A stretch of DNA of 37,392 bases from Bacteroidales bacterium. Its GTDB lineage: Bacteria > Bacteroidota > Bacteroidia > Bacteroidales > UBA12170. Below, one piece after another: positions 7,724 through 35,243 of this stretch. The position numbers and the translations under genes were made by a program. Within the stretch, counting starts at the first letter, position 1. Each line of letters begins with the position of its first letter. The stretch covers positions 1 through 37,392 of the forward strand of contig JAGGUP010000170.1 of the NCBI GenBank assembly GCA_021158405.1. The letters run 5' to 3'. The notes below the pieces were generated by a model, which made no database searches, had not been told where the DNA came from, and saw only the letters and a list, made by a program, of their open reading frames with translations.

Positions 7724-7841
7724 ATCTCTTTATTTAAAATGATTTTAAATAAAATAACAAAATTAAAAATAATACAAAGCAACAGCCTCAAAAAGCAAAG
7801 GAAATAGATAGAGAAGTGATGCATTTATGCCAACGGTAATT

Positions 7842-19497: not shown

Positions 19498-20178
19498 TTA
19501 ACCTTTATCGCTAATTTTTTCCAAAAGGGCTTGATTCAGAATTCGGACTTGTTTTCCATCCACTTGAATGATTTTTTCTTTGGATAAATCGGAAAGAAGT
19601 CGGCTAACCGTTTCCCGACTGGTACAAACAAGGTCGGCAATTTCATTACGCGTTAATGGAAGTTTAAATTCAGTTGATTCATATACTTCGGTCGACAAGT
19701 TCAACAGATGATTAGCTAAGCGGCCATAAATTTGATTCTGTATTAGTTTTACACAGCGATGGAATTGTTCCAATTCATTCCTGCAAAGCTCCGTGATAAT
19801 TTCGAAAGAAAAGTCGGGATTTATTTTCAGTAGATTCTTGAAAGTATTGATATCAATGAAACAAGCTGTTGTTGGCTCTATAGCAACTGCTGAATAATGA
19901 TTTACCTTATCCCCCATAGTTGTTGGAAGACCAAGATAACAGGGTGCTTTTTTTAGACGTAGAATCTGCGTCTGATGCGGACCTTCAATCAGTAATTTTA
20001 CCAAGCCTTTTTGAAGATATATAATATTGGAAGAAAGCGCATTCTCTTTAAAAATAGTATCGCCTTTCCGAAAAACTACTTCTGCACAACTATTTCCCAT
20101 CTGCTTCAATTCCGGGTCGCTTAAATTTTTGGCAGCTTTTGATTTAAATAAGCATAAGGAGCAATTTTTATTTTCCAT
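19498..20178 (-). CDS. Cysteine-rich Crp/Fnr-family transcriptional regulator
   Basis: This 226-residue protein has a cyclic-nucleotide-binding-like sensor domain (about 25-140), a dimer helix and a winged helix. The recognition helix TSRETVSRLL (186-195) carries Arg188, Glu189 and Arg193 at the positions of CRP Arg180, Glu181 and Arg185, plus Ser192 as in FNR, so it is predicted to read TGTGA half-sites. It has eight cysteines: C6, C9, C31, C80, C106, C132, C142 and C185. C6-x2-C9 resembles the N-terminal pair of FNR, and C106 in TTACFID aligns with FNR C122, but the remaining FNR ligand is not in its usual place. It may sense redox state through an altered iron-sulfur cluster or thiol/persulfide chemistry. 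It is divergent from the DsrE-TusA-Qmo-like operon and shares an operator with it. Confidence 0.85.
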   Translation of the reverse strand: MENKNCSLCLFKSKAAKNLSDPELKQMGNSCAEVVFRKGDTIFKENALSSNIIYLQKGLVKLLIEGPHQTQILRLKKAPCYLGLPTTMGDKVNHYSAVAIEPTTACFIDINTFKNLLKINPDFSFEIITELCRNELEQFHRCVKLIQNQIYGRLANHLLNLSTEVYESTEFKLPLTRNEIADLVCTSRETVSRLLSDLSKEKIIQVDGKQVRILNQALLEKISDKG

Positions 20179-20245: not shown

Positions 20246-20253
20246 CAAAAGTA
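20246..20253 (-). promoter_or_regulatory. Putative -7 box of the Crp/Fnr regulator gene
   Basis: The minus strand reads TACTTTTG, an exact TAnnTTTG match, 67 bases upstream of the ATG at 20178. The TGTGA dyad at 20257-20282 begins 4 bases upstream and covers the -33 region, so binding there would be expected to repress this promoter. Confidence 0.55.
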
Positions 20254-20256
20254 AAA

Positions 20257-20282
20257 AATAATGTGATGTATATCACATTATT
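20257..20282. promoter_or_regulatory. Crp/Fnr-type operator between divergent promoters
   Basis: There is a perfect dyad of two 11-bp arms (AATAATGTGAT at 20257-20267 and its complement at 20272-20282) around GTAT. The core at 20262-20277 is TGTGATGTATATCACA, an exact TGTGA-N6-TCACA site as bound by CRP. Its centre (20269.5) lies about 75 bases upstream of the predicted start of the DsrE operon, a usual distance for activation. It overlaps the -33 region of the regulator gene. It fits the CRP-like recognition helix of the adjacent regulator. Confidence 0.8.
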
Positions 20283-20311
20283 CCGAAAGCAAACTCACAG
20301 TCATTTTCTTG

Positions 20312-20339
20312 TTGGACTAAAGTTAGCATAGTACTTTTG
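20312..20339 (+). promoter_or_regulatory. Promoter of the DsrE-TusA-Qmo-like operon
   Basis: A TTG at 20312-20314 and TACTTTTG at 20332-20339 (exact TAnnTTTG) are 17 bases apart, a normal -33/-7 layout for Bacteroidota. Transcription would start near 20345 and give a leader of about 38 bases. An AAGGAG Shine-Dalgarno sequence at 20369-20374 lies 8 bases before the ATG, stronger than at most genes of this window. Confidence 0.6.
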
Positions 20340-20382
20340 TCGTGTTAAATAAATAACAATAATCTAAAAAGGAGAAAAGAAA

Positions 20383-20802
20383 ATGGCAAACAAAAAATTA
20401 ACATTAGCACTTTATACCGGTAGCGTTGACAAATTAACGGCTGCTGGTGTTATTCTTGGTGGAGCTGCTGCTGAGGATATGGACGTTGAAATCTATGTTT
20501 TATTACAGGCTGCCTTTGCTTTTAAGAAAGAAAATGCAATGACTAACGAACGTGTTGCAGAGATCACCGATAAACAGGATGAGTTCTTGGCTTCGTTAAA
20601 TCGTTTAAATACACCCCATTGGACAGAAGCTTTTAAAACAGCTAAAGAAATGACCAATGTAAAAGTACATATTTGTGGTTTTGCTGGTAAAGTATGGAAC
20701 GGCTATAAACTGGATGATTTTATCGATTTAGCCGATGATATCTGTGGAATTGGTGAATACATTACTTCAGCAGAAGAAGCAGATGTGAATCTCTTCATCT
20801 AA
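20383..20802 (+). CDS. DsrE-family sulfur-carrier-like protein
   Basis: This 139-residue cytoplasmic protein has the DsrE/DsrF-like fold (TLALYTGSVDKLTAAGVILG at the N terminus), a family that binds and relays sulfane sulfur on cysteine. It has only two cysteines, Cys98 (VHICGFAG) and Cys121 (DDICGIGEY), and either could carry a persulfide. It is first in an operon with a DsrE2-like protein, TusA and a Qmo/Hdr-like complex. Other DsrE proteins pass sulfur to or from TusA, which suits this context. There is no signal peptide. The exact subfamily is not clear, and sulfur transfer is inferred from family and neighbours. Confidence 0.8.
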   Translation: MANKKLTLALYTGSVDKLTAAGVILGGAAAEDMDVEIYVLLQAAFAFKKENAMTNERVAEITDKQDEFLASLNRLNTPHWTEAFKTAKEMTNVKVHICGFAGKVWNGYKLDDFIDLADDICGIGEYITSAEEADVNLFI

Positions 20803-20823: not shown

Positions 20824-21369
20824 ATGTCTAAAGAAATTGAAGTAAGAGTTGAAGAGCTGGAGAAAAAAATTACGCAGCTTCAAAGTCAAAGAAAAGATCA
20901 GCTTTCAATGGTTGTTTTCTCTGGTGATCTCGATAAAATGTTGGCCTCATTAGTTATTGCCGTTGGAGCAGCTGCTATGGACACAGAGGTTAAAATGTTT
21001 TTCACTTTTTGGGGTATTAGCGCTTTACGCGATAAGAACAAAAAGGTCAAAGGGAAAGACATGAAATCCAAAATGTTTGGTGCTATGCTTCCTCATGGGA
21101 TTAGTCAGCTGAAATTATCAAAAATGAATATGGAAGGTCTTGGAAAAGACATGATAAAAGGGATTATGAAGCAAAAAAATATAGCTTCTCCCGAAGAAAT
21201 GCTAGCCACTGCAGCCGAACTTGGAATTCATATCGATATTTGTGAAATGTCCATGGATCTCATGGGTTTTAAAAAGGAAGAAATGATCGATTACCCAAAT
21301 CTGGGTTACTGTGGTGTTGCTACCTTTTTAGCCGATGCAGGCGAAAGTAGTATTCAGCTTTTCATTTAA
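20824..21369 (+). CDS. DsrE2-like sulfur-transfer protein
   Basis: This 181-residue member of the DsrE/F/DrsH group resembles DsrE2, a partner of TusA in sulfur-oxidising bacteria. A charged helix likely to form a coiled coil (about 3-24) precedes the fold. Family features are LSMVVFSGDLDKMLA, MFFTFWGISALR, LSKMNMEGLGKDM and the cysteine segment IDICEMSMDLMG with Cys140. A second cysteine, Cys163 (LGYCGVATFL), lies near the C terminus. Hydrophobic stretches occur around residues 38-52 and 58-68, as is common in DsrE2, so membrane contact is possible. It lies 21 bases after the first DsrE gene. Confidence 0.85.
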   Translation: MSKEIEVRVEELEKKITQLQSQRKDQLSMVVFSGDLDKMLASLVIAVGAAAMDTEVKMFFTFWGISALRDKNKKVKGKDMKSKMFGAMLPHGISQLKLSKMNMEGLGKDMIKGIMKQKNIASPEEMLATAAELGIHIDICEMSMDLMGFKKEEMIDYPNLGYCGVATFLADAGESSIQLFI

Positions 21370-21406: not shown

Positions 21407-21655
21407 ATGACAGCAGAAGAATTAGTACAAGTAAAAGTAGATAAATCGGTAGATGCTCGTGGAACATCTTGCCCAGGCCCATTATTGGCAGCAAAAAAAG
21501 CCATCGGTCAGATTGAAAAAGGACAAATAATGGAAGTGCTTTCAGCAGATGAAGGGACAAGACGCGATATTCCTAAATGGTGTACCAAAAAAGGTTTTGA
21601 ATACCTGGGAACCATTGAAGATTCAGGTTATTATAAAATTATTTTAAGAAAATAA
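21407..21655 (+). CDS. tusA: TusA-family sulfur carrier protein
   Basis: This 82-residue protein carries the TusA signature CPGPLL with the sulfur-binding Cys22 in ARGTSCPGPL. TusA proteins hold a persulfide and hand it to tRNA thiolation, molybdenum-cofactor or dissimilatory sulfur enzymes. Its place inside this operon points to the dissimilatory or redox role. A second cysteine, Cys59, is present near the middle. It lies 37 bases after the DsrE2-like gene and 2 bases before the MvhD-like gene. Confidence 0.9.
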   Translation: MTAEELVQVKVDKSVDARGTSCPGPLLAAKKAIGQIEKGQIMEVLSADEGTRRDIPKWCTKKGFEYLGTIEDSGYYKIILRK

Positions 21656-21657
21656 TT

Positions 21658-22065
21658 ATGGCAGGTGGAAAAGTAAATAATAGCCCAAAGATTTTAGTTT
21701 TTTCTACAGAAAAAATCTCGGATCCGGCTATTGACATGGCGGGATTGTTAAAATTACATTATCCGCCTACGGTTTACACTATCCCAATTCCTTGCTCAAG
21801 TGCGGTTAAACCCCGCTGGATCATGCATGCACTTGAGCAAGGCTTTGATGGCGTTTTTATTGCAGCCGATGGTACAGATTGTCCCTATGGCGAGTCTTGT
21901 ACGACAAAGACGGGTGAATTGATGCGGATAACTCAAGAAATGCTCAAAGACAAAGGAATAGATCCGGCACGTTTGAAAATGGCGGCCATTTGTTCCGTAT
22001 GCAGCGAAGCTTTTGTGAAACATGTAAAGAGTTTTTCAGAATATTTAGGTAAATCCTCAAATTAA
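21658..22065 (+). CDS. MvhD/FlpD-like iron-sulfur electron-transfer protein
   Basis: This 135-residue protein resembles the small iron-sulfur subunit (MvhD, FlpD) that feeds electrons into HdrA in methanogens and bacteria. Five cysteines are present: C46 (IPCSSAVKPRWIM), C75, C81 (DCPYGESC), C112 and C115 (ICSVC). The run HALEQGFDGVFIAADGTDC matches the family's pattern before its cluster cysteine. In Desulfovibrio QmoB this domain is fused to the C terminus. Here it is a separate gene just upstream of the two HdrA-like subunits, with 2-base gaps on both sides. It probably docks on the QmoB-like protein. Confidence 0.8.
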   Translation: MAGGKVNNSPKILVFSTEKISDPAIDMAGLLKLHYPPTVYTIPIPCSSAVKPRWIMHALEQGFDGVFIAADGTDCPYGESCTTKTGELMRITQEMLKDKGIDPARLKMAAICSVCSEAFVKHVKSFSEYLGKSSN

Positions 22066-22067
22066 TT

Positions 22068-23378
22068 ATGATGCAGGAAAATATTAAAACACTGGAATAC
22101 GATGTATTGGTTGTTGGTGGTGGAATCGCTGGCGGTGAGTCAGCTTTGAACCTTGCAAACCTCGGTTATAAAGTATTGCTGGTAGAGAAAGAACTGTCTA
22201 TTGGCGGCAAAATGATTTTATTAAGCAAAGTATTTCCCACATTGGATTGCGCGGCTTGTATTACAACGCCTAAAGTATCTGAAATCGCTCGGCACCCAAA
22301 TATTACCGTGTTTACCGGTGCTGAACCATTGAAAATAAGTAAAAAAGGTGAGCATAAATTTGATGCCCTTGTCTTGCAAAAGCCACGTTATGTTGATGTG
22401 GATGCTTGTACCGGTTGTCAACTTTGCGAAGAGGCTTGTCCAGTCAGCGTTTCCGACGAATATCAATATGGATTAGTTGGGCGGAAAGCAGCTTATATCC
22501 CTTTCAGCATTGCTAGTCCGCGTGCTGCTGCTATCGATATTGAAAGTTGTATTTTATGTGGTGCCTGTGAAAAGGTTTGTCCGCCTAATTGTATCGATTT
22601 TACACAAACTGAAATAAAATATTTGGTAAAAATAAAGTCTGTAATTACGGCGACAGGGTTTAAATTGTTTGATCCTTTAAAAATTCCGCGTTATGGTTAC
22701 GAAAAATATAAAAATGTAATTACTTCCATGCAGATGGAACGTGAATTGGCACCTACTCGTCCATTTAATACGGTGTTGAGGCCCGGCGATGGTAAGATGC
22801 CTGATAATATTGCCTATGTTTTATGTACAGGATCACGCGATAAATCAGTCGGAAACCCAATCTGTTCTCAGATTTGTTGTATGTATTCCATTAAACAAGC
22901 GCAACTTCTTATGGGTGCTCTACCCATGGCTGATGTAACCATCTATTACCTTCATATCCGTGCTTTTGGAAAAGGATTCAATGAGTTTTATGGCCAGGCT
23001 CAAGATATGGGTGTTGAGTTTATGAAAGGCAAAGTAGGCAAGATTACCGAAAAAGAAAATGGGAATCTTATTTTGCGCTACGAAGATATAGAAGCTGGTG
23101 TAGTAAAAGAAGCTGAACACGATATGGTTGTCTTGTCTGTTGGCATATTGCCGAATCTGGGTATGGAAGAAGTTTTTGATAATGAAAGACTAAAATTGGA
23201 TCCTTTCAATTTTATTGATCAGGCGGATATTTTGGCTAGTCCGGCCAAGACAAGCATTGAAGGAGTTTTTGTTTCTGGTACGGCATCGGGTCCTATGGAT
23301 ATCCCTGATTCCATTTTATCAGGTGGAGCCGCTTCGGCTGAAGCTACAAGTTATTTAAGGAAGGAGAATACAATATGA
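22068..23378 (+). CDS. QmoA/HdrA-like flavin and iron-sulfur subunit
   Basis: This 436-residue protein resembles QmoA and the core of HdrA. The FAD loop is VVGGGIAGGESA (15-26). The HdrA-type cysteine pair FPTLDCAACITTPK (C61, C64) is present. Two 4Fe-4S ferredoxin motifs follow at C114-C117-C120-C124 and C161-C164-C167-C171, inserted into the flavoprotein fold. The segment around 253-271 (LCTGSRD, then CSQICCMYS) is the HdrA/QmoA signature. A second flavoprotein motif (VFVSGTASGPMDIPDSI) closes the C terminus. It lacks the N-terminal cysteine domain of full HdrA. Its stop overlaps the next start (ATGA). It is likely a soluble electron-transfer subunit bound to the membrane subunit below. Confidence 0.88.
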   Translation: MMQENIKTLEYDVLVVGGGIAGGESALNLANLGYKVLLVEKELSIGGKMILLSKVFPTLDCAACITTPKVSEIARHPNITVFTGAEPLKISKKGEHKFDALVLQKPRYVDVDACTGCQLCEEACPVSVSDEYQYGLVGRKAAYIPFSIASPRAAAIDIESCILCGACEKVCPPNCIDFTQTEIKYLVKIKSVITATGFKLFDPLKIPRYGYEKYKNVITSMQMERELAPTRPFNTVLRPGDGKMPDNIAYVLCTGSRDKSVGNPICSQICCMYSIKQAQLLMGALPMADVTIYYLHIRAFGKGFNEFYGQAQDMGVEFMKGKVGKITEKENGNLILRYEDIEAGVVKEAEHDMVVLSVGILPNLGMEEVFDNERLKLDPFNFIDQADILASPAKTSIEGVFVSGTASGPMDIPDSILSGGAASAEATSYLRKENTI

Positions 23379-25309
23379 AAAATAAAATAGGCGTATACGT
23401 TTGCCATTGTGGTGGTAATATCTCCGACTATGTTGATGTGGAAAAAGTCAGAAAAGCCGTAGAGAATGATGAAGGCGTTTATTTAGCCAAAACAACCATG
23501 TTTGCTTGTGCCGATTCAAATCAGAAAGAAATGGTTGATGATATTAAAGACCAAGGTCTCGACGGAGTTGTTGTTGCTTCTTGTTCTCCTAAATTACACC
23601 TCTTAACTTTTAGAGCCGTTACTGAAAGAGCGGGTTTGAATAAATATAATTATGTGCATGCCAATATTCGTGAACAAGTTTCATGGGCACATTCTGATGA
23701 TAAATTGGGAGCTACAGAAAAAGCCATTAAAATTGTAAAAGCAACTATTGCCAAAGTTCGAAATTCGGAGGCTTTGGAACCAATTAAAGTGAAATCGATT
23801 AAGGCTGTAGCCGTTATTGGAGCGGGAGTAGCCGGAATGAGAGCTGCTATTGAATTGGCCGAAGCCGGTTCGGAAGTTTTTCTAATCGAAAGAGAGTTTT
23901 TTGTTGGCGGACGTGTTGCACAATGGGACAATCTGTTTGTGAGCGAAGAAACCGGAAAAGAGCTGGTAACGCGTCTTTACGATGAAGTGATGAGACACCG
24001 ACATGTGACTTTATTCACCGGAGCCGAAGTGATTGAAAACAGTGGAAATGTAGGAAATTTCAAGTTGAAAGTAAAGATAACACCCCGTCATTTTAAGCTT
24101 TCATGTGCCCAAGGTGAACTTCAAAAAGCAATAGATGTTTGCCCGGTTGTGGTTCCCGATGAGTTCAATTTTAATATCACAACACGCAAAGCGATTTATC
24201 ACAATTATCCTAGTGAGTATCCGCAATTACCTGCTGTCGATATGAAAAATTGCACCCGTTGTGGCGAATGTGAGAAGGTATGTAATGGGGTTGATTTTAG
24301 TCAACAAACCGAATATTTGAATATCAATGTTGGTTCCGTCTTACTAGCAACAGGCTTTGATCCTTATGAACCAAAGAAAGGAGAATTTGGCTATGGCGAA
24401 ATAAATAATGTAGTCACCTTGCAACAGTTCAAAAGGATAGTTCATTATTGTGACGATAAGTTAATGTATAATGGAAAAGAAGTGAAAAACATTGCTTATA
24501 TCTATTGCGTGGGTAGCCGACAAGTAGATGGAGAAAATAAGTATTGCTCTCGCTATTGTTGCACGGCAACCATACATGCAGCCATTGATGTAAAGAAAAA
24601 ATTCAAGAAAGTACATAATTTTCATTTCAATCGCGGAATTAGAACTTATGGAAAGCAAGAAGTACTCTACGATGAGTCTTCTCGTTTAGGTGATATTTAT
24701 CTTCAATCCTTTGAACATGATCCTCCAAAAGTGGAAAGAGTTGGAGACGAAACTATTGTGAGAATTAAAGATGTCCTAACAAAAGATAAAGAGCTTGAAG
24801 TAGTTGCTGATTTGGTTGTATTGGTCACCGGAATGGTACCACGTAAAGATAATTCCATTGGAAATCTGTTGAAAGTACCAAAAGGTAGAGACAAATTTTT
24901 CAATGAAATTCATATGAAATTACGTCCGGTAGAAACTGTTATTGATGGGGTGACCATTGCAGGTGCTAGTCAAGGGCCAAAGAACATTATGGAATCGATG
25001 AATTCTGCTTTATCGGCGGCAACGAAATCCTTTTCCTTAATCAATTCTGGAGAACTTGCCTTGGAGCCTACGGTGGCTATGGTTGACGAAAATGCTTGCG
25101 ATTATTGTGGTAAATGCGAAGAGGCTTGCCCTTATAGCGCTTTTGAAAAAGTGGAAAAAAGCGGTAAATTTATTGTAAAAGTAAATAGTACTGTGTGTAA
25201 AGGTTGTGGCATGTGTTTACCTGTATGTCCTACCAATGCAATCAATTTGATAGGCTTAACTGACGTGGATATGGAGAACATGATTGATGCTTTAGTTCCT
25301 CAAGTTTAA
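23375..25309 (+). CDS. QmoB/HdrA-like flavin and iron-sulfur subunit
   Basis: This 644-residue HdrA homologue has an N-terminal cysteine domain (VCHCGGNISDY with C10 and C12, plus C45 and C70), the FAD loop VIGAGVAGMRAA (147-158), a ferredoxin motif at C293-C296-C299-C303, the HdrA signature CVGSRQVDG with CSRYCC, and two C-terminal clusters at C575-C578-C581-C585 and C608-C611-C614-C618. After the FAD loop the usual FPTxDCxxC pair is missing and reads VAQWDNLFVSEETGK, so this subunit differs from the QmoA-like one and resembles QmoB. It has no C-terminal MvhD domain, which is encoded separately. The AAGGAG at 23361-23366 and the ATGA overlap support tight coupling. Confidence 0.88.
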   Translation: MKNKIGVYVCHCGGNISDYVDVEKVRKAVENDEGVYLAKTTMFACADSNQKEMVDDIKDQGLDGVVVASCSPKLHLLTFRAVTERAGLNKYNYVHANIREQVSWAHSDDKLGATEKAIKIVKATIAKVRNSEALEPIKVKSIKAVAVIGAGVAGMRAAIELAEAGSEVFLIEREFFVGGRVAQWDNLFVSEETGKELVTRLYDEVMRHRHVTLFTGAEVIENSGNVGNFKLKVKITPRHFKLSCAQGELQKAIDVCPVVVPDEFNFNITTRKAIYHNYPSEYPQLPAVDMKNCTRCGECEKVCNGVDFSQQTEYLNINVGSVLLATGFDPYEPKKGEFGYGEINNVVTLQQFKRIVHYCDDKLMYNGKEVKNIAYIYCVGSRQVDGENKYCSRYCCTATIHAAIDVKKKFKKVHNFHFNRGIRTYGKQEVLYDESSRLGDIYLQSFEHDPPKVERVGDETIVRIKDVLTKDKELEVVADLVVLVTGMVPRKDNSIGNLLKVPKGRDKFFNEIHMKLRPVETVIDGVTIAGASQGPKNIMESMNSALSAATKSFSLINSGELALEPTVAMVDENACDYCGKCEEACPYSAFEKVEKSGKFIVKVNSTVCKGCGMCLPVCPTNAINLIGLTDVDMENMIDALVPQV

Positions 25310-25320
25310 AAATTAGAATT

Positions 25321-25605
25321 ATGGAAGTTGAAAAAGGAAAAACGGCAAAATATCTAAAGGAAAAACGGCCGGTTTCAGAACAAGCAAAAGAAGAGCTGAA
25401 AAAATTTAATAAGAAAAAAAGGGCGCTTCTCACAGCTTTAAAAGATGGAGAAAAAACGGTACCTCAACTCGCAAAAGTGCTTGAGCTGGAAACAAATGAA
25501 GTGATGTACCAGTTGATGAGTTTATTAAAATACGGTTTCGTCGAAACCGGTGAAATAGACGATATGGATGAATATTTTACATATAAAATAAAAAGTAATG
25601 GCTAG
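25321..25605 (+). CDS. Small winged-helix-like protein inside the Qmo-like operon
   Basis: This 94-residue protein starts with a very basic helix-forming stretch (about 1-38) followed by a compact segment that reads as a helix-turn-helix: TVPQLAKVLELETNEVMYQL (46-65), then a short wing around GFVETGEI. The ArsR/MarR-like fold is likely, but it has no cysteine and no obvious ligand site. Its end overlaps the QmoC-like gene by 8 bases. It could regulate the operon or act as a structural or assembly subunit of the complex. No function is assigned. Confidence 0.6.
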   Translation: MEVEKGKTAKYLKEKRPVSEQAKEELKKFNKKKRALLTALKDGEKTVPQLAKVLELETNEVMYQLMSLLKYGFVETGEIDDMDEYFTYKIKSNG

Positions 25606-26650
25606 GATAAATCCTGATTTTACAGAAGAACTAAGAGATTATGGGGCTTTTGACCCTAATGCTTGTTATAATTGTGGAAATTGCACGGCAGTTTGTACAC
25701 TCTCTGATGAAGATAATTCCTTTCCACGAACGATGGTTCGCGTCAGTGTTTTGGGCCTAGAAGATGAAATAAAATCCTCCCTCGATCCTTGGCTTTGCTA
25801 TTATTGTGGAGAATGCAGCACAACCTGCCCCCGAGAAGCAGATCCAGGTGAATTGATGATGTCTTTAAGGCGTTATCTCATCGCTAAATACGATTGGACC
25901 GGATTGTCGGGATTACTCTATAAATCTTTAACAGCCTCCATCATTGCCTTTTTGGGACTGGCTGCTTTAGTCATTTGGTTTGGCTATTCTGAAAGCTTCA
26001 ATTTAGAAGTCATTATGCCACAAGGGCATTTGTTTGAGATGCTTGCCATCGGATCGGTTTTTACTATAATTCTACTTCCAAATATTATACATATGTGGTG
26101 GTTGAGCATGTATAAACCAGGTGTCAAAGCTTCTATAGGTTTGTATTTTAAAGCTTTGGGAGATCTTATCGTCCATATGTTTACTCAAAAAAGAACTTTG
26201 GGATGTGATGATAATCAGTTTCGTTGGTTTGAACATTTTATTCTTGTTTTAGGCTATCTGAGCTTACTCTTTACTACAGTATTTTTAAATTGGTTCGAAA
26301 CGCATAACCTCTTTATAATAATACTTGGCTATGTTGAAAGTGCTATTATTTTTGTGGTTACCTTCGATTTCGTGAAAAGTCGTATTCAAAAGAATAAAGA
26401 AATTAGTAAGCATTCTCAACCCAGCGATTGGTTGTTTGTTATTTGGCTCTTGCTGATGGGTTTAACGGCATTTATTGTCCGTTTATTTATCGATTTGGAC
26501 GTTTTGGAGAATAACAGCTGGATGTATTTTGTACACCTCATCGTTTTGGTACAGTGGTCATTAATTATCGTTCCCTTTGGCAAATGGTCGCATTTCTTAT
26601 ACCGTTCTTTTGCTATGTATTTTCAAAAGATTAAAGAGCTAGCCGTTTAA
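25598..26650 (+). CDS. QmoC-like membrane subunit: ferredoxin domain fused to cytochrome b-type membrane domain
   Basis: This 350-residue protein joins an HdrC-like diferric domain to a membrane anchor, as in QmoC. Two 4Fe-4S motifs lie at C23-C26-C29-C33 and C67-C70-C73-C77 (CYYCGECSTTCP). About six hydrophobic segments follow from around 110 to 330. Histidines near membrane segments (NIIHMWW, RWFEHFILV, YFVHLIVLV, KWSHFLY) are candidate heme b ligands, as in the cytochrome b (DsrM/NarI-like) part of QmoC. The protein would exchange electrons with menaquinone. It has no CCG domain, so it is not HdrB or a heterodisulfide reductase. It is the last gene before the terminator. Confidence 0.85.
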   Translation: MARINPDFTEELRDYGAFDPNACYNCGNCTAVCTLSDEDNSFPRTMVRVSVLGLEDEIKSSLDPWLCYYCGECSTTCPREADPGELMMSLRRYLIAKYDWTGLSGLLYKSLTASIIAFLGLAALVIWFGYSESFNLEVIMPQGHLFEMLAIGSVFTIILLPNIIHMWWLSMYKPGVKASIGLYFKALGDLIVHMFTQKRTLGCDDNQFRWFEHFILVLGYLSLLFTTVFLNWFETHNLFIIILGYVESAIIFVVTFDFVKSRIQKNKEISKHSQPSDWLFVIWLLLMGLTAFIVRLFIDLDVLENNSWMYFVHLIVLVQWSLIIVPFGKWSHFLYRSFAMYFQKIKELAV

Positions 26651-30839: not shown

Positions 30840-33800
30840 TTATTTTGAAGCGTTTATAAAATATTCAACTTTAAACCGTGAATTGAGATAGTTGGCATTC
30901 GCATCCCAGTAATCGAATTCAATTTGCATGGCATCTCTCATATTTTGGAGGAAAGTGACATAATCAATTGCCCCCTCACGATAGGATGTGATTGCACCCT
31001 TTTTTTGTTCTTTTGCAACCGGTAAAGCCATATCACGGTAATATTTCGATGTGGTAAGCCACTTTTGATAATCTTCGTATAGGCTTTTATACGCAGCGTT
31101 AATTTCTAATTCTTTTTGGTAAAAATTCTCCCTGGCAATACTGCTTTCTATTTTTGCTGATTTGGTTTTACCTGATTGTGAAGCAAAAACAAGTGGGATA
31201 CTTAAGCCGAACTGGTATTTATAAAACCCCGTTTTTCTCCCAATTTTCTGACTCCCGTATTCGGCAGTAAATTTGGGCAAGTATCCGGCCTTTGCCAGTT
31301 TAATCCTTGCATCAGCTAATTGCACCCTTTGTTCATAAAGTTGTAATTGAGGGTGTTGATTAATCGAATCCAAAGGTAAATATCCCAGAACGCCGGCATC
31401 TTTAATAGAATTGTCGTCAACTGTAAAAACTGTGTCGCTTACAAGCCAAAGATTTAACTTTTGCAGGGCAATTTGGTAATCCATTTTTGATTTTTCCTTT
31501 TGGATACTGATTTGTTTGGCTTGGCTGGATGCTGATAAATATTCAAGCCTCGATGTAGCTTCGGTCTCGTAACGTAACTTTGCAGCCCGTTCAAAATTCC
31601 TGAAAACAGAATCGAGTTGTAAATAAAGCATGTATCGGTTTTTTGCGCTGTACACTTCTCCCCAAGCAACACTAACTTCGCGCACAAGTTGCAATTCTGT
31701 CAGATTAAGGGCTGTTTGAGAAATAGCTACCTGCTTATCCTGCACCTTTGATTTAGCCCCAATACTTAAAACATCAAATTCCTGCTTTACGGAAATGATA
31801 TTGTAGATACCATTCTCCGTATTGTTACCAAGTTCCTCAGCACCGGTAGAAAATTCGGTATTCCCGATATCCCATGCTGTTTTTTTCAAGGCTTCCTGAT
31901 TTTTTATCTCAAGTTGGGCAGCTTTTATCAACGGAAATATATTTTTTGCCCTGCTTACCGCGTCATTAATTGTTATTTGTGGAAGCAAACCTGTTTCCTG
32001 TGCCTGTGTATTTACAGAAATAAAAGATAAACCGACACTCAAAAACATCAGAATAATCAATGGAGCGTTAGTAATAGAAAAGCGTCTTTGTTTTCTTTTT
32101 TGAGTGAATGATTCAACCAAAGTATATAAAACCGGAATGACCACAAGAGTAAGAAAGGTAGCGCTGAATAAGCCTCCGATTACCACTGTGGCAAGTGGTC
32201 GTTGCACTTCCGCACCAGCAGAGCCAGAAGTAGCCATTGGTAAAAATCCTAACATAGCAGCCGTTGCAGTAAGAAGGATGGGTCTTAATCTTTCTTGTGT
32301 GCCGGTGAAAATCCGTTCCATGATATCAGTAACGCCCTCTTTTTTAAGAGAATTGAAGCGACTGATAAGAACTAAGCCATTTAATACGGCAACGCCAAAT
32401 AGCACGATAAACCCGACACCTGCTGAGATGCTAAATGGCATACCCCTAATCCACAGGGAATATATGCCACCAATGGCAGCCAGTGGCACGGCCATATATA
32501 TCATCACTGTTTGTGGAAATGAATGTAAGGCAAAGTATAATAGGATAAAAATCAAGATTAACGCAATTGGCAATACTATTGACAACCGGTCTTTCGCCCG
32601 TTGCAGGTTTTCAAACTCACCTCCGTAAGTAATGTAATAACCCGTAGGTAAATCGAGTTGTGTATCAAGTTTTTGCTGAATTTCATTTACAACCGATTCA
32701 ACATCCCTTCCTCTGACATTTACTCCTACATAAATTCTCCTGAAAGTGCCTTCCCTAGAAATTTGCATTGCTCCGGGCTGGAAGTTTATCTCAGCGACTT
32801 CTTTAATAGGAACTTGTTTCCCGTTTGGAAGGTCAACATACAAATTGCGCAAGTCTTCAATGCTTTTTCGGTGTTCTTTATCAAGCCGGATAACCATATC
32901 GAAACGTCTTTCCCCTTCAAAAATTATCCCTGCGCTATTACCGGCAAAAGCTGCGCTGACATACCTGTTGAGTTTAGCGATACTCAACCCGTACTGGGCT
33001 ATTTTTCTCCGGTCATATTGTACGGTCATTTGCGGTAATCCAGTAGTCCTTTCTAGAGTTACATCTTCTGCTCCTGCCACCGTGTTTATTATCGCCTCTA
33101 TTTCCTCCCCCTTCTCAGAAAGCACGTCCAAATCTTCGCCAAATAACTTAACCGCTACATCTTCCCTTACTCCAGTTAAAAGTTCATTGAAGCGTAACTC
33201 TACGGGCTGACTAAATGTAAAATTAAGGCCTGGAAGATGAGCAAGTTTTTCTCTGATTTTCTCAATAAGCTCTTCTTTTGTTGTTGCAGAAACCCATTTG
33301 CTTTTATCCTTTTCAAGAATGATGAAGCTATCGGTAAAGTCAAATCCCATTGGGTCTGTTGGGATATCGGCCACACCAATACGAGCGGCCACTGTTTTTA
33401 CTTCAGGGAAATTTGCCATAATTATTTTTTCAATTTCTTTTTCCCGTTTTATTGTTTCCGATAATGAACTTCCCGGACGAAGGAACACTTGCATAGCAAT
33501 GTCCCCTTCATCGAGGCTTGGAATAAATTCGCCCCCCATTCTGGTGAAAATAAAAACTGCGCTCCCTAATATTGATGTTGCAATAACAAGGGTGATAATT
33601 TTACGTTTTAGCGCCAAATGGAGAATCGGTTTATAAACTGCATGAATCATGTTTAATAACTTGCTACTGATTCCTTCCAGAAAATTTTCGAAACGAGCGA
33701 ACCAGCTATTTTTATTTTTAGTTGGTTTCATAACTATTGACGAAATCATTGGGACGTAGGTAAAGCAGAGCAGTATAGCGCCAAGTACGGCAAACCCGAA

Positions 33801-35243
33801 TGTAAAGACCATTGGTTGGAACATTTTGCCTTCAACCCCAGTAAGAAAAAGTATCGGTGCAAAAACAATCAAGATAATTAGCTGCCCGAAAAATGCTGAA
33901 TTCATCATGGTACTGGAAGCATGATAAGTAAGTTCATCCATTTGCGCCTGTCCAAATTTACCTTTCCCCGCTTTTACTTTTTTCTCAATTTCATGAACAG
34001 TCCCCTCAACAATTATTACCGCACCATCCACAATAATACCAAAGTCAATCGCCCCAAGGCTCATTAGGTTCGCCCAAACGTTAAAGACTTTCATTAAAAT
34101 AAAAGCAAACAAAAGGGAAAGTGGGATAACCGATGCGGTAACCAGTCCTCCACGTAAACTCCCCAACAAAACAACAAGTACGAAAATGACAATAAGGGCA
34201 CCTTCCATCAGGTTCTTACTAACTGTACTTGTCGTTCTCTGAATTAAATCGGAACGGTCGAGAAAAGATGCTATTTTTAGGCCTTCTGGCAAAGTCTTTT
34301 GCACTTTTGATATCCTAGCCTTTACACTTTGAATCACTTCGTTCGAGTTTTCACCTTTCAGCATCAAAATCATTCCTCCAACGGCTTCATGTCCTTCCTG
34401 AGTAAAAGCGCCATAACGGATCTGGCTGCCAAAATGAACCTGTTCAGCCACATCGTTAATTAATATAGGTATCCCATTTTCGTTTTTTACCACGATATTT
34501 TTTATATCGTCCAATGACCTGACCAAGCCTTCACCCCTTATAAAATTTGCCATGTGGTCTTTTTCGATATAAGCCCCACCGGTATTTACATTGTTGTTTT
34601 CTAATGCTTCAAAAACCTCGGTAATTGAAACGCCTATGGCGTTTAATTTATCGGGGTTCAGGGCAATTTCATATTGTTTAATATTGCCTCCAAAAGAATT
34701 TACTTCAACAACACCTGGGATTAAAGCCATTTGCCGTTTTACAATCCAATCCTGGATGGTACGTAATTCGGTTAGGGTATAAGTTGTGTCATAACCTTCT
34801 TCTGGTTTTATCGTATATTGAAAAATCTCACCTAATCCTGTTGTTATAGGACCCATAAAAGGTTCGCCAAACTGAGCCGGTATTTCGTCTTTTACAGCGT
34901 TAAGTTTTTCCTGAACAACCTGCCTTGGCAGATATGTGCCCATGTTGTCTTTAAACACAATTGTTACTACCGACAAACCAAACCGGGACACTGAACGTAA
35001 TTCAATAACCCCCGGCAAATTTGCCATGGCCAACTCTACCGGGTAGGTAACAAATTGTTCGATGTCAACCGTGGATAAATTCTGTGAAACGGTAATTACC
35101 TGCACCTGATTGTTGGTAATGTCGGGAACCGAATCAAGGTTAATTGTTTTTAACGAATACATACCTGCCCCAATCAGGGCAATAAGCATCAGGCTTACGA
35201 TAAATTTATTCTTTATCGAATAAGATATTATTTTGTTAATCAT
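30840..35243 (-). CDS. CzcA-type heavy-metal RND pump fused to a TolC-like outer-membrane factor
   Basis: At 1467 residues this is about 430 longer than a normal RND pump. Residues about 1-1045 form a heavy-metal RND transporter: DFGIIVDGAVIIVEG with the proton-relay aspartates and glutamate, and FSQPVELRFNELLTGVRED, which resembles the Zn/Co/Cd (CzcA) rather than the Cu/Ag (CusA) class. Residues about 1059-1077 are a hydrophobic segment after basic KRKQRR, ending in TQAQ like a signal-peptide cleavage site. Residues 1083-1467 are a TolC/CzcC-like outer-membrane factor with two repeated helical halves (LRYETEATSRLEYLSASSQA, YREGAIDYVTFLQNM). No stop, frameshift or start separates the halves. 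Such fusions occur in other Bacteroidota. The adaptor is the next gene down. Confidence 0.92.
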   Translation of the reverse strand: MINKIISYSIKNKFIVSLMLIALIGAGMYSLKTINLDSVPDITNNQVQVITVSQNLSTVDIEQFVTYPVELAMANLPGVIELRSVSRFGLSVVTIVFKDNMGTYLPRQVVQEKLNAVKDEIPAQFGEPFMGPITTGLGEIFQYTIKPEEGYDTTYTLTELRTIQDWIVKRQMALIPGVVEVNSFGGNIKQYEIALNPDKLNAIGVSITEVFEALENNNVNTGGAYIEKDHMANFIRGEGLVRSLDDIKNIVVKNENGIPILINDVAEQVHFGSQIRYGAFTQEGHEAVGGMILMLKGENSNEVIQSVKARISKVQKTLPEGLKIASFLDRSDLIQRTTSTVSKNLMEGALIVIFVLVVLLGSLRGGLVTASVIPLSLLFAFILMKVFNVWANLMSLGAIDFGIIVDGAVIIVEGTVHEIEKKVKAGKGKFGQAQMDELTYHASSTMMNSAFFGQLIILIVFAPILFLTGVEGKMFQPMVFTFGFAVLGAILLCFTYVPMISSIVMKPTKNKNSWFARFENFLEGISSKLLNMIHAVYKPILHLALKRKIITLVIATSILGSAVFIFTRMGGEFIPSLDEGDIAMQVFLRPGSSLSETIKREKEIEKIIMANFPEVKTVAARIGVADIPTDPMGFDFTDSFIILEKDKSKWVSATTKEELIEKIREKLAHLPGLNFTFSQPVELRFNELLTGVREDVAVKLFGEDLDVLSEKGEEIEAIINTVAGAEDVTLERTTGLPQMTVQYDRRKIAQYGLSIAKLNRYVSAAFAGNSAGIIFEGERRFDMVIRLDKEHRKSIEDLRNLYVDLPNGKQVPIKEVAEINFQPGAMQISREGTFRRIYVGVNVRGRDVESVVNEIQQKLDTQLDLPTGYYITYGGEFENLQRAKDRLSIVLPIALILIFILLYFALHSFPQTVMIYMAVPLAAIGGIYSLWIRGMPFSISAGVGFIVLFGVAVLNGLVLISRFNSLKKEGVTDIMERIFTGTQERLRPILLTATAAMLGFLPMATSGSAGAEVQRPLATVVIGGLFSATFLTLVVIPVLYTLVESFTQKRKQRRFSITNAPLIILMFLSVGLSFISVNTQAQETGLLPQITINDAVSRAKNIFPLIKAAQLEIKNQEALKKTAWDIGNTEFSTGAEELGNNTENGIYNIISVKQEFDVLSIGAKSKVQDKQVAISQTALNLTELQLVREVSVAWGEVYSAKNRYMLYLQLDSVFRNFERAAKLRYETEATSRLEYLSASSQAKQISIQKEKSKMDYQIALQKLNLWLVSDTVFTVDDNSIKDAGVLGYLPLDSINQHPQLQLYEQRVQLADARIKLAKAGYLPKFTAEYGSQKIGRKTGFYKYQFGLSIPLVFASQSGKTKSAKIESSIARENFYQKELEINAAYKSLYEDYQKWLTTSKYYRDMALPVAKEQKKGAITSYREGAIDYVTFLQNMRDAMQIEFDYWDANANYLNSRFKVEYFINASK

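Follow-up and report, generated by a model that had tools for sequence, protein, structure and literature searches.

What is the role of the palindrome that separates a Crp/Fnr-type regulator gene from a divergent DsrE/TusA/HdrA/QmoC-like operon in contig JAGGUP010000170.1 of a Bacteroidales bacterium? The window, by which we mean the whole stretch of 37,392 nucleotides analysed, contains at 20257..20282 a perfect 11-4-11 dyad, AATAATGTGAT-GTAT-ATCACATTATT, assigned to no strand and here called O1. As the preliminary description had said, the dyad encloses a TGTGA core: TGTGATGTATATCACA (20262-20277) matches TGTGA-N6-TCACA with 0 mismatches. We propose that O1 serves the divergent regulator as its private operator, and that the regulator would activate the DsrE/DsrE2/TusA/FlpD/HdrA/HdrA/QmoC-like operon and repress its own gene; we put the probability of this reading at about 0.8.

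How much does the dyad itself tell us? The exact pattern TGTGA-N6-TCACA occurs once in the 2,935,165-base genome, at O1, but so does the reversed control pattern, so that a single match is what chance would give and carries no weight by itself. Shuffled windows have on average 0.2 perfect dyads whose arms reach 11 bases or more, and the real window has three besides O1, at 97-124, 457-480 and 7729-7753, which are possibly terminators or hairpins. With such company, O1 might be thought a chance AT-rich palindrome, an RNA hairpin or a terminator. No terminator-like site was found at O1, though, and O1 lies upstream of both predicted transcription starts. Because arm length and a single genome match are insufficient, the case for O1 rests on comparison with related loci, and that comparison excludes all three of these readings: O1 is conserved in a sequence-specific manner across 60 loci, which contradicts a chance palindrome, and we assign this alternative a next to negligible probability.

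The related loci were gathered from whole genomes and genome contigs with the first operon gene as query; the contig search gave 80 loci, mostly from uncultured Bacteroidales. Most share one gene order, a divergent regulator followed by dsrE-like-(dsrE2)-tusA-flpD-hdrA-hdrA-small HTH-qmoC-like. Among the 60 intergenic regions of loci with a divergent orthologous regulator, 47 contain TGTGAT-N4-ATCACA with at most one mismatch (0 mismatches in 27, 1 in 20, and a further 7 with 2), against 0.05 loci expected from dinucleotide shuffles. The loci are related, so these counts are not independent; 26 representatives share less than 70% regulator identity. Conservation of O1, as judged from these alignments, is beyond chance.

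Does the site follow the regulator? Where the regulator does not adjoin the first gene, 18 of 23 loci have no O1-type site. In L051 and L059 the regulator lies between the first gene and the next, and a dyad is found at each of the two promoters. L047 has the site and no adjacent regulator, which is carried by another contig of the same MAG (L062); L119 likewise has the site alone, on a contig that ends 287 bp upstream; and in L102, which has the site, a regulator is located further upstream. A good site is also missing from L080, L104 and L105, whose regulators have altered recognition helices. L060, with a normal recognition helix yet no good site, counts against the operator reading. On the whole the comparison across loci supports the earlier view of the dyad as a control site of its neighbours, in the form of a predicted operator.

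Which protein would read O1? The adjacent gene (19498..20178, minus strand) encodes a 226-residue protein that scores above the curated cut-offs for PF00027 and PF13545, placing it in the Crp/Fnr superfamily with a cNMP-binding-like domain and a Crp-type HTH. The alignment bears out the CRP-like recognition helix proposed from the sequence at the outset: in R188-E-T-V-S-R193, encoded at 19600..19617 on the minus strand, R188, E189 and R193 align with R180, E181 and R185 of E. coli CRP. R188 is present in 59 of 60 orthologues and E189 in 60 of 60. Three regulators among the anchored loci (L037, L043 and L095) carry R193K, and their sites have TGTGAA in at least one half-site, a small instance of co-variation. 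A residue-base rule published in PMC1274295 ties the CRP R180 and E181 positions to bases of TGTGA.

Could a different protein, such as a global CRP-like regulator or another Crp/Fnr paralogue, be the one that binds? TGTGA-N6-TCACA is after all the classic CRP site, and besides the adjacent regulator the genome has genes for five other full-length members of the Crp/Fnr group. None of the five, however, has Arg at position 188, and by the residue-base rule of PMC1274295 the adjacent regulator is thus the sole candidate TGTGA reader in the genome. The occurrence of the pattern only once in the genome and the co-occurrence of O1-type site and adjacent regulator across loci also speak against another reader, which we consider quite improbable. 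We favor a dimer of the adjacent regulator reading the two TGTGAT half-sites of O1.

What might this regulator sense? The preliminary description spoke of a "textbook CRP-type" dyad, a phrase that goes too far: the likeness to CRP is limited to the DNA contacts. The cAMP-contact positions E72, R82 and S83 of CRP are Leu84, His94 and Tyr95 here, and the regulator scores 56 bits against a cut-off of 266 for the CRP equivalog model. Identity as a cAMP-CRP is excluded by the missing cAMP-contact residues. Instead there are cysteines of the FNR type, since C6, C9 and C106 align with FNR C20, C23 and C122. FNR C29 has no positional equivalent; C31, present in 55 of 60 orthologues, is a possible substitute, and C31, C132 and C142 are also strongly conserved among orthologues. 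These residues suggest that the regulator probably binds an Fe-S cluster through Cys6, Cys9, Cys106 and perhaps Cys31, and that it is probably redox-switched by this means. The best name for it is an FNR-like sensor whose DNA site is of the CRP type.

How would binding at O1 affect the two promoters? A generic sigma-70 scan is uninformative for Bacteroidota promoters, and promoter elements were located by anchoring the 55 alignable loci on the dyad centre. Following PMC9723704, we took the -7 box as spanning -12 to -5 relative to the start; the consensus TAnnTTTG is also given in PMC7366714. The operon -7 box, TACTTTTG (20332..20339, plus strand), conforms to this consensus and begins at +62 from the O1 centre, which puts the predicted start at about 20344 and the O1 centre at -74.5, in agreement with the figure of some 75 bases given earlier. 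In 38 of 55 loci a TnnnTTTG box starts at exactly +62; about a quarter of loci depart from the fixed spacing, which we count against our explanation. The -33 element of the operon promoter, TTG (20309..20311, plus strand), is weak; 21 of 55 loci have TTG in this position.

On the regulator side, the -7 box is again TACTTTTG, on the minus strand at 20246..20253, with a predicted start at about 20241. The O1 centre lies at -28.5 relative to this start, and the dyad covers -16 to -41, so that it does overlap the -33 region of the regulator promoter as had been noted. Across loci the regulator -7 box is spread over -25 to -21 from the dyad centre, with CAAANNTA at -24 to -21. A fixed distance to the operon promoter and a more variable one to the regulator promoter would be expected if the bound protein activates by contact in one direction and represses by blocking in the other. 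The geometry would thus fit activation of the operon from -74.5 together with autorepression, the regulator at O1 covering the -33 region of its own promoter.

The alignment contains two conserved elements absent from the preliminary description, a weak site in tandem with O1 and, across the operon start, a dyad of the Rex type. The first, O2 (CGAAAGCAAACTCACA, 20284..20299, no strand), is a degenerate site with a 7/10 match to TGTGA-N6-TCACA, centred 22 bp, or two helical turns, downstream of O1 and at -52.5 from the operon start. The half-site TCAC of O2 keeps its exact +25 offset in 42 of 55 loci. Among the 26 representatives with less than 70% regulator identity, 18 have it; the background frequency is about 0.2% per position. 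A second, weaker dimer probably sits at O2 and aids activation. The positions -74.5 and -52.5 differ from the best-known E. coli class I and class II positions, and we count this too against our reading; with the sigma factor of Bacteroidota, other distances may apply.

O2 also lies near the weak operon -33 element, and one might suppose that the operon and the regulator gene are both repressed by the regulator, through a complex at O1 and O2 that is released by a ligand or a redox change. Crp/Fnr proteins can repress, and in PMC545781 the HcpR of Desulfovibrio is predicted to repress sat and apsAB. A blocking repressor, on the other hand, has no need of a site held at a rigid distance far upstream of the operon promoter, and the weak -33 element is as in activator-dependent promoters. 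Repression of the operon therefore seems unlikely to us, and we retain the reading of activation from O1.

The second element is GTGTTAAATAAATAACAA (20342..20359, no strand), which overlaps the predicted operon start with its centre at +7.5. TGTTAA-N4-TTAACA, at 20343-20358 just after the operon -7 box, is present in 34 of 60 loci when one mismatch is allowed, where 0.2 would be expected, and the dyad is similar to published Rex sites (TTGTTANNNNNNTAACNN, PMC5886521), which are of the TTGTTA-N6-TAACAA type. Does the genome have a Rex regulon to which the operon might belong? A rex gene is present, and Rex-type motifs are found (loci L137, L133, L132, L127 and L024) upstream of genes for a NuoE-like protein (twice), HydG, HydE, a methylmalonyl-CoA mutase subunit and a type III sulfide:quinone reductase, most of which would be in place in a Rex regulon. 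Genome-wide the motif is counted 27 times, only slightly more than the 20 of the reversed control, so that motif matches alone are weak and conservation at the operon promoter is the stronger evidence. Rex bound at the operon start would probably add repression at low NADH/NAD+. In L024 (G000:C163, 94-2160) another Crp/Fnr paralogue and the type III sulfide:quinone reductase gene point away from each other, and the stretch that separates them holds a Rex-type dyad. This may be a second Crp/Fnr-Rex pair on a sulfur gene.

What does the operon do? All of its genes are on the plus strand. A DsrE-like gene (20383..20802) comes first, followed by a DsrE2-like gene (20824..21369) that is absent from many related operons, a TusA-like sulfur carrier (21407..21655), an FlpD/MvhD-like electron-transfer subunit (21658..22065), an HdrA/QmoA-like flavoprotein (22068..23378), an HdrA/QmoB-like flavoprotein (23375..25309), a small winged-helix protein of 94 residues (25321..25605) and a QmoC-like membrane subunit (25598..26650). 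Both flavoproteins match HdrA models below cut-off, and the last protein falls below the cut-off of the qmoC model, at 164 bits against 300. Neither aprA (APS reductase) nor dsrA was found in the genome, and dissimilatory sulfate reduction was ruled out on this ground; with aprA, dsrA and hcp all missing, the operon is not an APS-reductase Qmo system. The gene set suggests that electrons are exchanged between the quinone pool and sulfane sulfur bound to protein.

Several features of the surroundings deserve mention. In most relatives the gene for the 94-residue winged-helix protein has the qmoB-like gene on one side and the qmoC-like gene on the other. As its product has no cysteine, we dismissed the idea that it is a thiol-switch repressor of the sHdrR kind. 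In one relative (L038, 2164-12936), genes for a YedE-type transporter, TusA and two rhodanese-domain proteins, which have a divergent Crp/Fnr regulator of their own, precede the operon, and this upstream cluster resembles the YTD cluster of sulfur disproportionators. Further along the window, a 1467-aa ORF (30840-35243) looks by eye like an RND metal-efflux pump with an outer-membrane-factor-like C-terminal part; beside it are two further ORFs, one heavy-metal ATPase-like and one Fur-like.

Is the regulator dedicated to this one operon? A genome search for TGTGA-N6-TCACA had been proposed as a way to define its regulon, and the search returned one site only. In six genomes, with 0-5 exact sites each, there was no sign of a wider regulon; counts were close to those of the reversed control in four of the six, and the idea of a wider TGTGA regulon was dropped. 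We appear to be dealing with an unstudied Crp/Fnr clade tied to a single target, the DsrE-TusA-FlpD-HdrA-HdrA-QmoC-like operon, which is found mostly in uncultured Bacteroidales, and the exact bases are now supplied for testing. The Rex-type site suggests a regulon for redox balance that takes in the operon together with hydrogenase and sulfide:quinone reductase, which offers a clue to the role of the sulfur complex. One may speculate, though we think the odds are somewhat against the full picture, that the promoter is a switch with two inputs, so far undescribed but widespread among uncultured Bacteroidales. A dedicated FNR-like sensor of the Fe-S or thiol kind, at TGTGAT-type sites arranged in tandem and in phase, would act together with Rex, the NADH sensor; they would switch on a HdrA/QmoC-like membrane complex, fed by DsrE/TusA, for the sulfane-sulfur metabolism of an organism that has neither dsrA nor aprA. 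In this picture the regulator may sense sulfur species rather than oxygen.

How does this system compare with known ones? No description of the regulation of a DsrE/TusA/FlpD/HdrA/QmoC-like operon was found in the parts of the open-licence literature searched. The closest parallels are four. HcpR of Desulfovibrio is also a Crp/Fnr protein and, according to PMC545781 and PMC1274295, reads wTGTGAnnnnnnTCACAw with Arg180/Glu181-type contacts and has predicted sites near sulfur-energy operons (sat and apsAB, with qmoABC downstream of apsBA). The regulator described here shares the TGTGA-N6-TCACA operator and the Arg at the R180 position. Sulfur genes are predicted to be repressed by HcpR, whereas activation is predicted here, with one adjacent operon as the target. 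Membership in the HcpR group was ruled out, as hcp, the core HcpR target, was not found in this genome, which is 96% complete. The HcpR of P. gingivalis, described as heme-dependent in the abstract of PMC12750200, differs from the present regulator with its FNR-type cysteines.

E. coli CRP has the same three recognition-helix residues and the same core site, but its cAMP contacts are replaced here and the regulon does not extend beyond the local site. With E. coli FNR the regulator shares equivalents of C20, C23 and C122 and the E-x-x-S-R of the recognition helix; it differs in lacking C29, in the extra Arg188 and in half-sites that read TGTGAT rather than TTGAT. A likeness of another sort is offered by sHdrR of Hyphomicrobium denitrificans, likewise a dedicated regulator of sulfane-sulfur oxidation genes. 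According to PMC12423496, sHdrR is an ArsR-type sulfane-sulfur-responsive repressor, in contrast to the Crp/Fnr protein found here, and its system differs from the present operon, where a QmoC-like membrane subunit is present. Systems of this kind are known; the regulon, the tandem site and the overlap with Rex appear to be new.
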